64,000 bases of DNA from Microbacterium luteolum (lineage in GTDB: Bacteria > Actinomycetota > Actinomycetes > Actinomycetales > Microbacteriaceae): contig NZ_BAAAUN010000001.1 of the NCBI RefSeq assembly GCF_039533965.1, positions 1,772,950 through 1,836,949 of the forward strand, written 5' to 3'. The notes under the pieces were generated by a model. It saw nothing but the letters and a program-made list of their open reading frames with translations. It was not told the DNA's origin and did no database searches. How positions within the stretch are numbered: the first letter of the stretch is position 1; the number at the start of each line of letters is the position of its first letter. Shown piece by piece: positions 1,146 to 22,408 of this stretch. The position numbers were made by a program, and so were the translations under genes.

Positions 1146-3455
1146 ATGACGTCAGCACCAGACCCCCGCACGCCCGGCCTCAGCCGCCGCGGCTTCCTCA
1201 AGGCCACGATCGTCGCGGGCGTCGTGCTCGTCGCGGAGGCGAGTCCTGTGACGGCTCACGCGGCCGCCGGCGACGTCACGCTGTCCGCGACCGGCATCAG
1301 CGTGCTGGCGAGCGTCGGCGGTCGCATCGCGATCCGCGACGCGAGCGGCGTCATCCGCACACAGGGCTCGAAGTTCCAGGTGAAGGATCGGCTCAGCGGC
1401 ATCCATGTCTCCGTCGGAGGCACCCCGAGCCTGGTCACCGCCCCCGACGGCGCCCCGGCGATCCGCATGGACTACACGTTCGACGCCGCGGCCGGACCGA
1501 CGACCGTCGTCGGACTGATCACCCTGTCGACCAACCATGCCCACCTCGAATGGGAGGTGCAGGGCGACGCGACGCTCGTCCCGGACGGCTTCCTCTTCAG
1601 CCGCGCGATCCTCGCCTCGACGGCGCCGGACGACTTCGTCGCGGTCACCGAATGGGTGCGCGACGACCGTGGCGGCATCCCGTACGAGGACACGGCCGGC
1701 ATCGCCCACGTCTCCACCTGGGGCGCCCTGCACGGCATGTTCCTCCTGGAGCGCTCGCGCCAGGCGTGGACCAACACGACCTGGGTGCACTCCCCCGGCA
1801 CCGCGCTGACCGGAGGCGGGTATCTGAGCCAGGCCGACTTCTTCTTCAGCGAGACCCGCCCGTCCGCGACGGCGACGATCGGCCGCGGCGATGAGCTCGG
1901 CATCGAACTGCGCACCGATCAGCCGTTCAACATCTGGGAAGGCGGCCAGACCGCATCGTTGACGGCCCTCGTCGCCAACGGCGGGTCCACGGCCAAGAAC
2001 GTGCAGCTGTCCTGGTGGGTGCGCGACTTCGACGGCACCGAGCTCGCCACCAGCACGGTGACCGTGCCGGTAAGCGCCGCCGGCACGGCGGAGCACACGT
2101 TCACGCTCACCGTTCCCGCGCAGGGGATCTCGCTGGCGGAGGTGACGGCGAGCGCGGGGACGGATGCCGCGTTCGCCCGCACCAACATCGCCGCGCTCCC
2201 TCCGCGCAGTCTCGATCCGAGCGTGGCGAGCATGTTCGGGATGGCGAACTATCCCTGGCTGCTGCGACCCTCCGCTCCCGCCGTCCTCGACCTCTGGCAG
2301 CGCGTCGGGGTCAGCCGCGTGCGGATCTCCTACGCCGGAGGCCCCGGTCTGCCGCCGGCGGACTTCGACGCACGGAGCATGCTCCACAACATCGAGCTGC
2401 AGCCCTCGCTGGAGGTCACCGACGCGGCCGCCGCGGACTGGGCGGTCGCCAATGTGACCACGGCGATCGCCGCCGGTGCCGAGTACTTCGAGATCGGCAA
2501 CGAGTTGAACCGGCCCTTCAACACGGGTGACGCCGCGCAGGCCTACATCGACAAGGCGCTCCGCCCCGTCGTCGATCGGGTCGCGGCGACCGGCTCATCG
2601 ATCAAGATCATGAACAACGGCCTCGCGGGGATGGACAAGCCCTGGGTGGAGAACTTCATCGCCGGGGGCGGCTGGGACCTCATCGACGCCTTCGCCTACC
2701 ACCCCGGCCGCGGCAACTTCACCCCCGATTACATCCCGGACGGCGATGACTGGGAGGAGTCGAGCAACGGCACTTACTGGAACTTCGCCGGCGGCCTGAA
2801 GCAGCTGAAGGCGCTGATGGACGTGCACGGCGAGAAGGAGATCTGGCTCACCGAGGCGTATGCGTGCACACGGCCGAACGGCTGGTGGAACGACACCTAT
2901 CGGCACGCCGCCGAGAACGTGTTCCTCACACTCGCGCTCGCGAAGGCCGAAGGCATCCGCCACGTGTGCTGGTACCAGTTCCACGACAGCGTGCTGGGAA
3001 ATCCTCAGGTCGCCGACCCCGAGAACGTCGAGTACCACTACGGCCTCATGAACCGTGACCTCAGCGCGAAGCCGTCGCTCCTGGCCTATGCGCACGCCGC
3101 GAAGACGCTCGACGGGGCGACCTTCCTCGGGAAGCTCGACCTCGGCGTCGTGAACGCCAAGGGCCTGCTGTTCGACACGCCCCTCGGGCATGCCGCCGTA
3201 CTGTGGAGCCGCGCCGACGGCTACCTCCTCAACACGGATCACGATCCCGCCGACTGGCACTTCGCCGCGCCCGAGGTCTGGGTCGACCCCTGGCCGACGA
3301 AGACGACCCTCACGCTGCCGGCATCCGGCGGCACCGCGTACCAGCTCGATGCGATCGGACAGCGGTCCGACCTCGCGGTCGCCTCCGGCACGGTCGACGT
3401 CGTGATCGACGGCGCGCCGCGGGTGTTCTACGGGCTCGACCTGGCGGTCGACTGA
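1146..3455 (+). CDS. Tat-exported glycoside hydrolase-like protein, clan GH-A type catalytic domain
   Basis: The ATG at 1146 is chosen because AGCAGGAG lies just upstream and the protein then begins with a Tat signal (SRRGFLK at residues about 13-19, a hydrophobic stretch, and an Ala-rich cleavage region). The 769-residue product has an N-terminal beta-rich region (about 45-340), a TIM-barrel-like region with FEIGNELNRP (acid/base candidate Glu453) and IWLTEAYACT (nucleophile candidate Glu570), and a C-terminal beta domain. The NE...TE pair resembles clan A families such as GH39/GH5, but I cannot assign the family. It is divergent from a LacI gene. Its substrate is presumably a polysaccharide or glycoside hydrolysed outside the cell. 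Confidence 0.75.
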   Translation: MTSAPDPRTPGLSRRGFLKATIVAGVVLVAEASPVTAHAAAGDVTLSATGISVLASVGGRIAIRDASGVIRTQGSKFQVKDRLSGIHVSVGGTPSLVTAPDGAPAIRMDYTFDAAAGPTTVVGLITLSTNHAHLEWEVQGDATLVPDGFLFSRAILASTAPDDFVAVTEWVRDDRGGIPYEDTAGIAHVSTWGALHGMFLLERSRQAWTNTTWVHSPGTALTGGGYLSQADFFFSETRPSATATIGRGDELGIELRTDQPFNIWEGGQTASLTALVANGGSTAKNVQLSWWVRDFDGTELATSTVTVPVSAAGTAEHTFTLTVPAQGISLAEVTASAGTDAAFARTNIAALPPRSLDPSVASMFGMANYPWLLRPSAPAVLDLWQRVGVSRVRISYAGGPGLPPADFDARSMLHNIELQPSLEVTDAAAADWAVANVTTAIAAGAEYFEIGNELNRPFNTGDAAQAYIDKALRPVVDRVAATGSSIKIMNNGLAGMDKPWVENFIAGGGWDLIDAFAYHPGRGNFTPDYIPDGDDWEESSNGTYWNFAGGLKQLKALMDVHGEKEIWLTEAYACTRPNGWWNDTYRHAAENVFLTLALAKAEGIRHVCWYQFHDSVLGNPQVADPENVEYHYGLMNRDLSAKPSLLAYAHAAKTLDGATFLGKLDLGVVNAKGLLFDTPLGHAAVLWSRADGYLLNTDHDPADWHFAAPEVWVDPWPTKTTLTLPASGGTAYQLDAIGQRSDLAVASGTVDVVIDGAPRVFYGLDLAVD

Positions 3456-20142: not shown

Positions 20143-20898
20143 CTACTTGCGGGGCGGGTTGAGCGGCAGCCACTCCTCGAGGCGCGTCTCGAAGATGTGC
20201 GCCCCGTCGAGAGGTACCAGAGTGCGCTCCTCGATCTGAGCGCCGTAGTAGGGGGCGCTGTCATCGCGCACGACGGTGCGCGGATCCTTGCGGAAGGTCA
20301 GTCCCCTGCGGATGAACTCGTCCATGCCGAAGGCCTCCGGCCCCGCGATCTCGACGTCGCCGCTCGGGGCGCCGGCGGCGGTGCGAGCCACGGCCGTGGC
20401 GACGTCCTCGGCGGCGATGGGCTGCACGAGTGCGCCGGGCAGCCGCACTTCGGTGCCTTCGGTCGAGATGTCGGCGATGCTTCCGATGAACTCGAAGAAC
20501 TGGGTGGCGTGCACGAGCGAGTACGCGATGCCCGATTCTCGGATCAGCTTCTCCTGAGCGACCTTGGCAGCGAAGTACGGGATCGCCTGCGGGCGGTCGG
20601 TGCCGACGATGGTGAGCGCGACGTGATGCTTCACGCCGGCCTCCGCCTCCGCGCGGAGCAGATTGCGCGTCGAGGTGGTGAAGAACTCGAGCACGTCGTC
20701 CGGTGCGAACGACGGCGAGTTCGAGACGTCGACGACGACATCCGCTCCGGTCAATGCCTCGGCGAGGCCCTCTCCGGTGAGGGAGTTGACACCGGTGTTC
20801 GGCGAAGCCGCGACGGCCTCGTGGCCGTGCTCCGTCAGTTTCGCGACGACCTTGGATCCGATGAGGCCCGTGCCCCCGATGACGACGATCTTTGCCAT
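20143..20898 (-). CDS. NmrA-type NAD(P)-binding oxidoreductase/epimerase, COE partner of ECF41 sigma factor
   Basis: The ATG at 20898 gives 251 residues starting MAKIVVIGGTGLIGSKVVAK, a Rossmann nucleotide-binding motif. The rest is an NmrA/SDR-like atypical short-chain fold (VALTIVGTDR, YSLVHATQFFEFIG). A longer start, TTG at 20919, is possible but AGGCAGGG favours the ATG. ECF41 sigma genes typically sit beside a carboxymuconolactone decarboxylase, oxidoreductase or epimerase (COE) gene that they transcribe. This gene is divergent from such a sigma factor, and its own promoter carries the matching TGTCACA box. The chemical reaction is unknown. Confidence 0.87.
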   Translation of the reverse strand: MAKIVVIGGTGLIGSKVVAKLTEHGHEAVAASPNTGVNSLTGEGLAEALTGADVVVDVSNSPSFAPDDVLEFFTTSTRNLLRAEAEAGVKHHVALTIVGTDRPQAIPYFAAKVAQEKLIRESGIAYSLVHATQFFEFIGSIADISTEGTEVRLPGALVQPIAAEDVATAVARTAAGAPSGDVEIAGPEAFGMDEFIRRGLTFRKDPRTVVRDDSAPYYGAQIEERTLVPLDGAHIFETRLEEWLPLNPPRK

Positions 20899-20946
20899 TT
20901 CCCTGCCTTTCGTTCTCAAGAGCGCCGCTCGGCGCCCATCAGATAG

Positions 20947-20973
20947 GACCGGGGAGAGACGCTCGATGTGACA
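20947..20973 (-). promoter_or_regulatory. ECF41-type promoter of the NmrA/COE gene
   Basis: On the minus strand TGTCACA (20967-20973) is followed by 16 bp and GGTC (20947-20950). The published ECF41 consensus, as I recall it, is TGTCACA-N16-CGTC. The identical arrangement occurs on the other strand in front of the sigma gene. Confidence 0.8.
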
Positions 20974-21019: not shown

Positions 21020-21046
21020 TGTCACAGATCGTGGCCGCCACCGGTC
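21020..21046 (+). promoter_or_regulatory. ECF41-type autoregulatory promoter of the sigma gene
   Basis: TGTCACA (21020-21026), a 16-bp spacer and GGTC (21043-21046) lie 46 bp before the sigma factor ATG. Both divergent promoters share the same -35, the same spacing and the same -10 variant. Confidence 0.8.
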
Positions 21047-21092: not shown

Positions 21093-22013
21093 ATGCGAAT
21101 CGATGAGGTGATGTCGAGCCCTGACGATCTCGGCAGGAGCGGAGACCTCGAAGAGGCCGTGCGGATCTTCGACACCCACCGTCGACGCCTGTTCGGCATC
21201 GCCTATCGCATGCTGAGCAGCGTCGCGGATGCGGAGGACATCGTCCAGGAGACGTGGATCCGGTGGCAGAACACGGATCGCACGCAGATTCAGGAGCCCG
21301 TGGCGTTTCTCACGACGATCGCCACCAGGCTCTCGATCAACGTCCTGCAGTCCTCGCACACGCGACGCGAGACCTACATCGGGCCGTGGCTGCCCGAGCC
21401 GGTCAACACGGACGACGACCCGGCTCTCGGTGCCGAGCGGGCTGAGGCGCTGCAGTTCGCGATCCTCTTGACGCTCGAGAAGCTGACCCCGACCGAGCGG
21501 GCGGCGTACATCCTCCGCGAAGCGTTCGACTACCCGTATCCCCGCATCGCCGAGGTGATCTCCAGCAGCGTCGTCAGCGCGCGACAGCTCGTCAGCAGGG
21601 CGCGAGCGCATCTGTCTTCCACGAAGGTGGCGACCGTGGATCCGCACGCGCAACGCCGATTGCTGGAAGCCTTCCTCACTGCGGCGCAGAAGGGTGACGC
21701 CCAGGAGCTGGAGCGCCTGTTCGCGTCCGACGTCGTGAGCTACACCGACGGCAACGGGGTGAAGCTCGCCGCGCGCACTCCCGTGAACGGACGCCGCCGC
21801 GTCGCGCAGTTCGTCGCCGCGTTCGCCCACCACTTCTGGACAGGAAAGACGATCGACTGGGTTCACGTCAACGGTCAGCCCGCCGCGACCCTCACCGAGG
21901 ACGACGCGGTGACCACCATCGTGACCGTGACGACATCGACCGAAGGCATCCTTCAGCTCCTCTGGGTCATGAGCCCGCAGAAGCTCGGACATGTCACCGC
22001 GGTCAGCGCATGA
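21093..22013 (+). CDS. ECF41-type (SigJ-like) RNA polymerase sigma factor with SnoaL-like C-terminal extension
   Basis: The 306-residue protein has sigma region 2 (IFDTHRRRLFGIAYRMLSSV, then DAEDIVQETWIRWQ), an inter-domain linker with WLPEP (99-103), and sigma region 4 (about 125-175). The SnoaL-like domain runs from about 185 to the end. The ECF41 hallmarks are WLPEP, DGGGK (here DGNGVK, 219-224) and a C-terminal NPDKL (here SPQKL, 294-298), so the last two are degenerate. In this family the extension both inhibits and is needed for activity; there is no anti-sigma gene. It overlaps the next gene by ATGA. Confidence 0.9.
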   Translation: MRIDEVMSSPDDLGRSGDLEEAVRIFDTHRRRLFGIAYRMLSSVADAEDIVQETWIRWQNTDRTQIQEPVAFLTTIATRLSINVLQSSHTRRETYIGPWLPEPVNTDDDPALGAERAEALQFAILLTLEKLTPTERAAYILREAFDYPYPRIAEVISSSVVSARQLVSRARAHLSSTKVATVDPHAQRRLLEAFLTAAQKGDAQELERLFASDVVSYTDGNGVKLAARTPVNGRRRVAQFVAAFAHHFWTGKTIDWVHVNGQPAATLTEDDAVTTIVTVTTSTEGILQLLWVMSPQKLGHVTAVSA

Positions 22014-22408
22014 CCCGCAAGCACTACCCGGCGTGGTGGCGCCGGAGGCTTCGTGGTGCCGCCGCCGAGGGCACGATGAGCGAACTCGCGAGCGCTCTGA
22101 CGTCGAACGATGAGGATGTGCTCCGCGAGATGCTGCACCCGGACGTCGTGGTGATCATCGACAGCGGCGGGTTCGTTCCCCACGCGGCCGAGCCCGCCGA
22201 GGGACCGGCCGCGGCTACCTCGCAGCTGCTCAGCCTGATGACGTCGGACACGTCCGTCGCGATGGCGTCGATCAACAGCGTTCCCGGGTTCACCCTGATC
22301 CGCGGCGGACAGGTCGTCGGAGCGGTCACCGCAGAGGAGCGATCGGGACTCCTGTCCAGCGTCTGGGTCGTGTGCAATCCCGACAAGCTCCGCCACTGGA
22401 ATCGGTGA
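22010..22408 (+). CDS. Stand-alone SnoaL-like protein resembling the ECF41 C-terminal extension
   Basis: The 132-residue protein starts within the sigma factor stop (ATGA at 22010-22013). MTRKHYPAWWRRRLRGAAAE is a basic start; a second ATG (MSELASAL, residue 23) could be the true start. The rest reads like an ECF41 tail: ASALTSNDEDVLREMLHPDVVVIIDSGG-type opening with DSGG at 51-54 in place of DGGG. It ends VVCNPDKLRHWNR, carrying the canonical NPDKL signature (123-127) that the adjacent sigma factor itself has lost. It probably acts on, or in place of, the sigma factor's regulatory domain. That is inference from motif and coupling. Confidence 0.75.
   Translation: MTRKHYPAWWRRRLRGAAAEGTMSELASALTSNDEDVLREMLHPDVVVIIDSGGFVPHAAEPAEGPAAATSQLLSLMTSDTSVAMASINSVPGFTLIRGGQVVGAVTAEERSGLLSSVWVVCNPDKLRHWNR

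Follow-up and report, generated by a model that had tools for sequence, protein, structure and literature searches.

We analysed a 64,000-nucleotide (nt) window of the Microbacterium luteolum genome (contig NZ_BAAAUN010000001.1), in which the gene of an ECF41 sigma factor is directly followed by a gene for a 132-residue protein. Judged by its sequence, this small protein is an ECF41 C-terminal (SnoaL) tail encoded alone, with DxGG and NPDKL motifs, and is not a sigma factor. It recurs next to the same type of sigma gene in Microbacterium and in other genera, and apparently goes back to the tail of another ECF41 sigma factor, once encoded in tandem and since lost. We consider it probable that it serves as a dedicated regulator of the adjacent sigma factor, acting in trans. 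The two genes and their motifs are as follows (window coordinates).

21093..22013, plus strand: partner ECF41 sigma gene (S1), 306 residues, assigned by TIGR02957, Pfam and SigJ 5xe7 matches
S1 domains: sigma2 at residues 26-87 and sigma4 at residues 123-174, followed by the fused SnoaL tail
S1 motifs, plus strand, read from the sequence: WLPEP linker at 21387-21401, DGNGVK at 21747-21764, SPQKL at 21972-21986
22010..22408, plus strand: stand-alone ECF41-tail gene, 132 residues, assigned by the tail-only SigJ match, predicted fold, recurrence and ratio of nonsynonymous to synonymous substitution rates (dN/dS)
22010..22013, plus strand: ATGA overlap of 4 nt in the sequence, the small-gene ATG lying within the sigma-gene TGA
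Small-protein motifs: basic N-terminal stretch; DSGG at residues 51-54 (22160-22171)
Small-protein C-terminal end: NPDKLRHWNR at residues 123-132, with NPDKL at 22376-22390

Identity and fold of the small protein

The first-pass annotation, made from the sequence of the window, had pointed to the separate reading frame with its ATGA overlap, DSGG, and NPDKL followed by RHWN, all of which are present as it described. It had named missing profile similarity to ECF41 extensions and missing recurrence in other genomes among its refuting conditions; we checked both, and neither refuted it. The likeness to ECF41 tails goes beyond chance. In NCBIfam, the small protein matched the SigJ model NF007214 with E = 1.9e-14, at model positions 172-290 of 293 only, which correspond to the tail. 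In the PDB, it matched SigJ residues 181-297 (5xe7, E = 7.9e-5). All 44 small-family members in our alignment (A1) matched both NF007214 and TIGR02957 at E ≤ 0.01, and 10 of the 44 matched Pfam SnoaL_2. The best Pfam match of the window protein was DUF4440, below the cut-off (E = 0.0038); with Pfam as the sole source, the relation to ECF41 tails would have gone unnoticed. No Sigma70 family was found for it in Pfam at E ≤ 1, hence no sigma2 and sigma4 domains, and no anti-sigma model was among the Pfam or NCBIfam matches of the protein or its family.

The small protein was predicted to adopt a SnoaL/NTF2 fold, with helices on a curved sheet (AlphaFold2, predicted local distance difference test score 86). 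Conserved positions among 83 small tails were D51 (99%), G53 (94%), G65 (95%), N89 (96%) and W119 (99%), together with P124 (94%), K126 (95%), L127 (96%) and W130 (96%) in the C-terminal part. The C-terminal motif is the best-kept part of the free tail.

In 11 close pairs of loci, dN/dS was 0.11-0.39 for the small gene and 0.03-0.15 for the sigma gene, and the dN of the small protein was 1.5 to 9 times that of the sigma factor. The small gene is under purifying selection and is changing faster than its partner. On these dN/dS values, we rejected the reading of the small gene as a pseudogene.

Recurrence and linkage in Microbacterium

We found 60 S1 loci in 295 Microbacterium genomes (at least 384 bits and at least 61% identity), and the small gene started with the exact 4-nt overlap at 53 of them. 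Among 63 small open reading frames (ORFs) extracted from the genus loci, 55 had this overlap, as ATGA in 41 and GTGA in 14. By its overlap, the small gene appears to be encoded together with the sigma gene, as expected of an anti-sigma gene. One of the seven exceptions is a small gene frameshifted just past its start (L043; L and G numbers denote loci and genomes). The small gene is displaced at L105 (where the gene is that of L082, on another contig) and at L091 (on the other strand), and L107 and L110 retain only fragments of it. Among the 53 overlap loci, the small gene is frameshifted inside at L059 and runs on in frame into a short-chain dehydrogenase/reductase (SDR) gene at L084. The latter ORF (genome G198, 2166-3356, minus strand) lacks its own stop codon and continues in frame through a short stretch into the SDR; it is a possible natural fusion of the two proteins.

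By contrast, the stretches examined on either side of 11 ECF41 genes that belong to other subfamilies in the genus (L002, L003, L085, L087, L090, L092 and L118-L122) contained no small gene, and most examined copies of a sister sigma subfamily (~52% identity) had none directly after them. The exceptions in the sister subfamily were a small gene 7 nt after the L074 sigma gene and another 825 nt after that of L088. We also observed that sister-subfamily sigmas (L058, L065, L070, L073, L112-L116) carry DGGG and, where the tail is whole, mostly NPxKL, and that in several genomes such copies lie no more than a few kb from the main locus.

The position of the SDR gene (SDR1) is less constant. In 55 pairs, SDR1 was downstream on the same strand in 25, divergent upstream in 14, downstream on the opposite strand in three and run together with the small gene in one; it was not seen in the stretch examined in the other 12. 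The tie of the small gene to the SDR gene is looser than its tie to the sigma gene.

The genome listing behind the small-gene recurrence is confined to the matches listed, with stretches examined for some of the 146 genomes that gave a match, mostly those with potential stand-alone tails; before the counts, we dropped identical sequences as well as tails in which fewer than 85 profile positions were aligned. In a mirror comparison of the 51 loci left after dropping L059, L084 and pairs lacking both sigma matches, small-protein and sigma-core distances were correlated (r = 0.76; 0 of 1000 Mantel permutations), to which we give no weight because any linked pair would show such a correlation.

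Apparent origin from a second, tandem ECF41

We searched 398 genomes from other genera of Microbacteriaceae (loci L151-L170 and L201-L208). Many of these loci encode a partner sigma and a small protein; the overlap or short gap between the two genes is less uniform there than in Microbacterium. At four sister loci (L151, L152, L153 and L162), the partner sigma is accompanied by a second full-length ECF41-like protein instead. The sigma2 stretch DAED(I/V)VQ is altered in all four second sigmas, which gave Pfam sigma2 scores of 16.5, 27.1 and 16.0 bits and no hit, respectively, compared to 43.1 and 42.8 bits for two of the partners. The sigma4 scores of these pseudo-sigmas were 26-33 bits vs 44-50 bits in the partners, and the L162 protein has also lost the WLPEP linker. 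The second gene is able to start with the same 4-nt overlap at L151 (TTG), L152 and L162 (GTG); at L153, no start with a 4-nt overlap opens the frame. The relatives of the window locus form a graded series, from a second ECF41 with weakened sigma2 (L151-L153), through one with neither a recognisable sigma2 nor WLPEP (L162), to the tail alone.

In a tree of 206 tails, composed solely of sequences found with ECF41-type queries, the 83 stand-alone tails and the four pseudo-sigma tails grouped together (ultrafast bootstrap, UFBoot, 98). This small clade was nested inside the tails of other full-length ECF41 proteins (UFBoot 99-100). A separate group (UFBoot 100) held every partner and sister tail. 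FastTree recovered the same groups. In a subset of 80 tails, the small and pseudo-sigma tails still grouped with UFBoot 89, and the nesting inside other ECF41 tails was not significant (approximately unbiased test, p-AU 0.39-0.41 for the alternative). The stand-alone tails by themselves had UFBoot 79 in the full tree and formed no clade in the subset, so that one loss of the sigma part is indistinguishable from several.

The first-pass annotation had proposed that the regulatory surface was duplicated and moved to a separate protein. A separately encoded ECF41 tail is what we found, but not one copied from the adjacent sigma factor: forcing the small clade to join the partner tails, apart from the sister subfamily, was rejected (difference in log-likelihood 53.1, p-AU 3e-4). 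The small protein apparently descends instead from another ECF41 that stood in tandem, of which only the tail is left.

Related proteins were also seen elsewhere. Two contigs of G985, from another actinomycete family, encode truncated ECF41-like proteins (L198, 2990-3664, minus strand; L200, 1565-2437) without linker and sigma4 and with the tail kept; both are outside the tail tree. The L198 protein is beside an intact ECF41 and the L200 protein beside an ECF41 of another type. They are perhaps the same kind of decay again, and the conversion may have happened more than once. The sigma-small-SDR order was seen once in a further family of the order (L216). A group of stand-alone tails (L163, 2002-2448; L166; L167, 3014-3487; L202; L203; L208, 2984-3346; L210), ~150 residues long where translated, has a variable C-terminal end (HPETQRHWN, RPLMLRHWN and the like) and no sigma gene directly beside it. 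Stand-alone ECF41-like tails also occur in other families of the class, at L196 (G898) and L197 (G758). With the window sigma as the query, no sigma was found in the 6.4-kb stretch of the former; an ECF sigma of another type is ~0.5 kb from the latter.

Motifs of the partner tail

DGNGVK and SPQKL of the partner had been described in the first-pass annotation as degraded. On the motif counts with and without an adjacent small gene, we rejected the reading that the partner tail is degraded and replaced by the small protein. Among genus partner tails with an adjacent small gene (n = 57), DGNG was present in 55 and SPxK in 49, i.e. nearly all genus members keep them; DGNG is likewise found, with SP (five) or AP (one), in the six S1-subfamily sigmas of the genus that lack an intact small gene beside them. 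M. tuberculosis SigJ itself has DSNGK and NPDKF. Of 21 partner-type sigmas from other genera that have a small or pseudo-sigma gene next to them, 19 carry NPxK and 15 carry DGGG; since these loci were picked by a match to the small profile, and several come from one genus, the 21 of 26 partner-type tails with such a neighbour do not represent a frequency. On sequence grounds, DGNG and SPxKL of the partner are subfamily variants rather than decay. As the variants are subfamily-wide and the small gene also accompanies sigmas with NPxKL elsewhere, the small protein does not compensate for the loss of a motif; it constitutes a second, additional SnoaL domain.

The partner sigma factor and its surroundings

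In NCBIfam, S1 scored 340.8 bits against TIGR02957 (cut-off 323.25) and 293.6 bits against NF007214 (cut-off 271). Sigma70_r2, r4_2 and SnoaL_4 of Pfam were above cut-off, and the SigJ structure 5xe7 was matched with E = 8.2e-45. The surroundings of the pair include the following features.

21020..21046, plus strand: ECF41-type promoter-like site TGTCACA-N16-GGTC preceding the sigma/small operon
20947..20973, minus strand: divergent ECF41-type promoter-like site TGTCACA-N16-GGTC preceding the SDR gene
20143..20919, minus strand: NmrA/SDR NAD(P)-binding protein gene, with Pfam NAD_binding_10 and NmrA above cut-off

The sigma and SDR genes are divergent, with one promoter-like site for each direction. 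For the SDR gene, the listed start is TTG, and we infer that translation more likely begins at an ATG seven codons downstream. A beta-galactosidase gene on the opposite strand lies beyond 22010-22408. TGTCACA-N16-GGTC, with GGTC in place of the consensus CGTC as the -10 element, matched twice in the window (0.07 expected). Promoter-like sites were found within 1.5 kb upstream of 41 of 60 S1 sigma genes and of none of the 60 in the reversed-sequence control; these 60 genes, chosen by sigma and tail scores and by at least 1.1 kb of upstream sequence, differ from the 60 S1 loci above. NmrA/SDR proteins are a kind of neighbour typical of ECF41 loci in the available passages of the founding study (PMC3426412). 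By its SigJ/SigX4 model matches, WLPEP, SnoaL tail, TGTCACA-type site and SDR neighbour, S1 is an ordinary ECF41.

Proposed function and alternatives

As described in the passages available to us, the fused ECF41 tail contacts the linker and inhibits the sigma factor; removal of its C-terminal part raised the activity ~20-fold for the B. licheniformis protein and 120-fold for the R. sphaeroides protein, and removal of the whole tail abolished the activity (PMC3426412, PMC8999054). In our model, translational coupling by the 4-nt overlap would yield similar amounts of the sigma factor and the small protein, and the ECF41-type promoter preceding the operon would close a feedback loop. The free tail would bind the sigma factor at the sigma2-sigma4 linker (WLPEP) or against its own SnoaL domain, and would keep it in an inactive state, from which a ligand bound in the SnoaL pocket could release it by altering the shape of the tail. 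The small protein would thus act like a cytoplasmic anti-sigma factor of sigma-factor descent. That its effect on the sigma factor is negative has, in our opinion, close to an even chance. We put forward with some reserve, as a possible history, that a second ECF41 lost the core-binding sigma2 and then the whole sigma part, leaving a free tail that controls the neighbouring ECF41, i.e. a sigma-derived anti-sigma factor which moved from cis to trans and has left living intermediates.

We must also note the observations that weigh against this proposal. The regulator role is deduced from sequence, and the SnoaL/NTF2 fold is also found in enzymes. The small family does not keep A58, A59 and P62, which fused tails retain right behind DGGGK, so that part of the surface that operates in cis may have been lost. 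Two more of the seven S1 loci lacking the exact overlap yielded no small gene in the stretches examined: L103, where the sigma gene is intact, and L104, where it has an in-frame stop. Conversely, an intact small gene with the 4-nt overlap stands beside a broken sigma gene at L047 and L066, two further loci not counted among the 60, and small genes without a sigma gene directly beside them occur at L082, L089, L161, L166, L196, L203, L204 and L210. The read-through of the small ORF into the SDR in G198 might point to a link with the enzyme. Decay of the pseudo-sigmas is incomplete: sigma4 is above the Pfam cut-off in all four and sigma2 in that of L152. Genome-wide, TGTCACA-N16-GGTC had five matches, against two for a backward-pattern control. 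Finally, Wecke et al., in the passages available, observed ECF41 activity in B. subtilis with no second protein present and argue against the involvement of one (PMC3426412).

Alternatively, the small protein could be a positive partner, namely a SnoaL subunit that pairs with the SnoaL domain of the sigma factor and is needed for its full activity or for ligand sensing (a co-activator or co-sensor). Fused tails play both positive and negative roles, according to the accessible text of PMC3426412. Moreover, the small gene is seldom lost where the sigma gene stays, and two loci without an intact small gene (L104 and L110) also have a broken sigma gene. However, the intact sigma gene at L103, the small genes retained next to broken sigma genes at L047 and L066, and the faster evolution of the small protein speak against such a role, which we regard as unlikely.

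The small protein might instead be a ligand-binding or catalytic protein of the ketosteroid isomerase-like SnoaL kind, acting on the same metabolite as the SDR and affecting the sigma factor only by removing or buffering that metabolite. A fold search with the small-protein model returned many ketosteroid isomerases and limonene epoxide hydrolases, SDR1 is near in 43 of the 55 pairs and joined in frame in G198, and the small gene adjoins the SDR gene rather than a sigma gene at L082, L161 and L088. On the other hand, SDR1 was not seen in the stretches examined for 12 pairs and is variably placed, in contrast to the constant sigma overlap. The sequence affinity is to ECF41 tails, and the SnoaL-enzyme-type model TIGR02246 was matched by one of the 44 A1 members, as was SnoaL_4 (E ≤ 0.01). 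The nearest relatives in the tree are sigma-factor tails, in a tree that holds only sequences from ECF41-type queries. We find this explanation distinctly improbable. It is hardly credible that the small gene is merely what is left, without function, of a decaying sigma duplicate that stood in tandem. Broken or incomplete copies do occur (G165/L043, G183/L059, G201/L107 and G090/L110), but the dN/dS values, the reading frame and motifs kept down to ~30% identity, the constant overlap at 53 of 60 loci and the presence of the family in several genera contradict it.

Comparison with known systems

PhyR is a sigma-mimic anti-anti-sigma factor of the alphaproteobacterial general stress response. 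It retains a sigma-like region in a protein that does not act as a sigma factor, which is probably also true of the pseudo-sigmas described here; the small protein of the window differs in having no such region. The L162 pseudo-sigma (2496-3395) matched PF22233 (PhyR_sigma-like) with E = 9.3e-5, although its 22.6 bits fall short of the cut-off (27), and had no Sigma70_r2 hit; the PF22233 match may reflect only the shared sigma4.

Among ECF41 sigma factors with a fused tail (SigJ of M. tuberculosis, Ecf41Bli and Ecf41Rsp; PMC3426412), the small protein is homologous to the tail alone. Here, the second tail is a separate protein, whereas the founding study, in its available passages, describes ECF41 as functioning with no second protein (PMC3426412). 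Classical ECF anti-sigma genes, as outlined in the same passages, also directly follow the sigma gene behind an operon promoter of the sigma factor's own type (PMC3426412), but the small protein derives from a sigma-type tail. A similar arrangement has been reported for SigG1-RsfG of Streptomyces tsukubaensis (ECF56), where the gene of a SnoaL-tailed ECF sigma factor is followed by a co-transcribed gene whose ~17 kDa product binds SigG1 (PMC7730460). In the portion of that report available to us, this demonstrates that a SnoaL-tailed sigma factor can have a small co-transcribed binding partner (PMC7730460). RsfG is reportedly devoid of a conserved Pfam domain and is not described there as SnoaL-like (PMC7730460); our comparison with it is one of gene arrangement.

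RsfG apart, titles, abstract openings and passages retrieved with ECF41, SnoaL, anti-sigma and pseudo-sigma terms, including those of PMC8103513, did not mention such a gene; a mention is possible in the 2021 ECF reclassification, the 2017 SigJ and the 2019 ECF41-tail papers. In the passages available, Wecke et al. noted genes for hypothetical proteins lying between the ECF41 gene and the neighbouring gene (PMC3426412), so members of the family may have been seen and not recognised. The conditions inducing ECF41 were unknown to the founding study, as far as its available text goes (PMC3426412). ECF41 sigma factors are widespread, and a conserved, sigma-derived second protein offers a handle on the tail, which could be deleted, titrated or purified apart from the sigma factor. 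If the proposed history is true, it would reveal one source of new anti-sigma factors.
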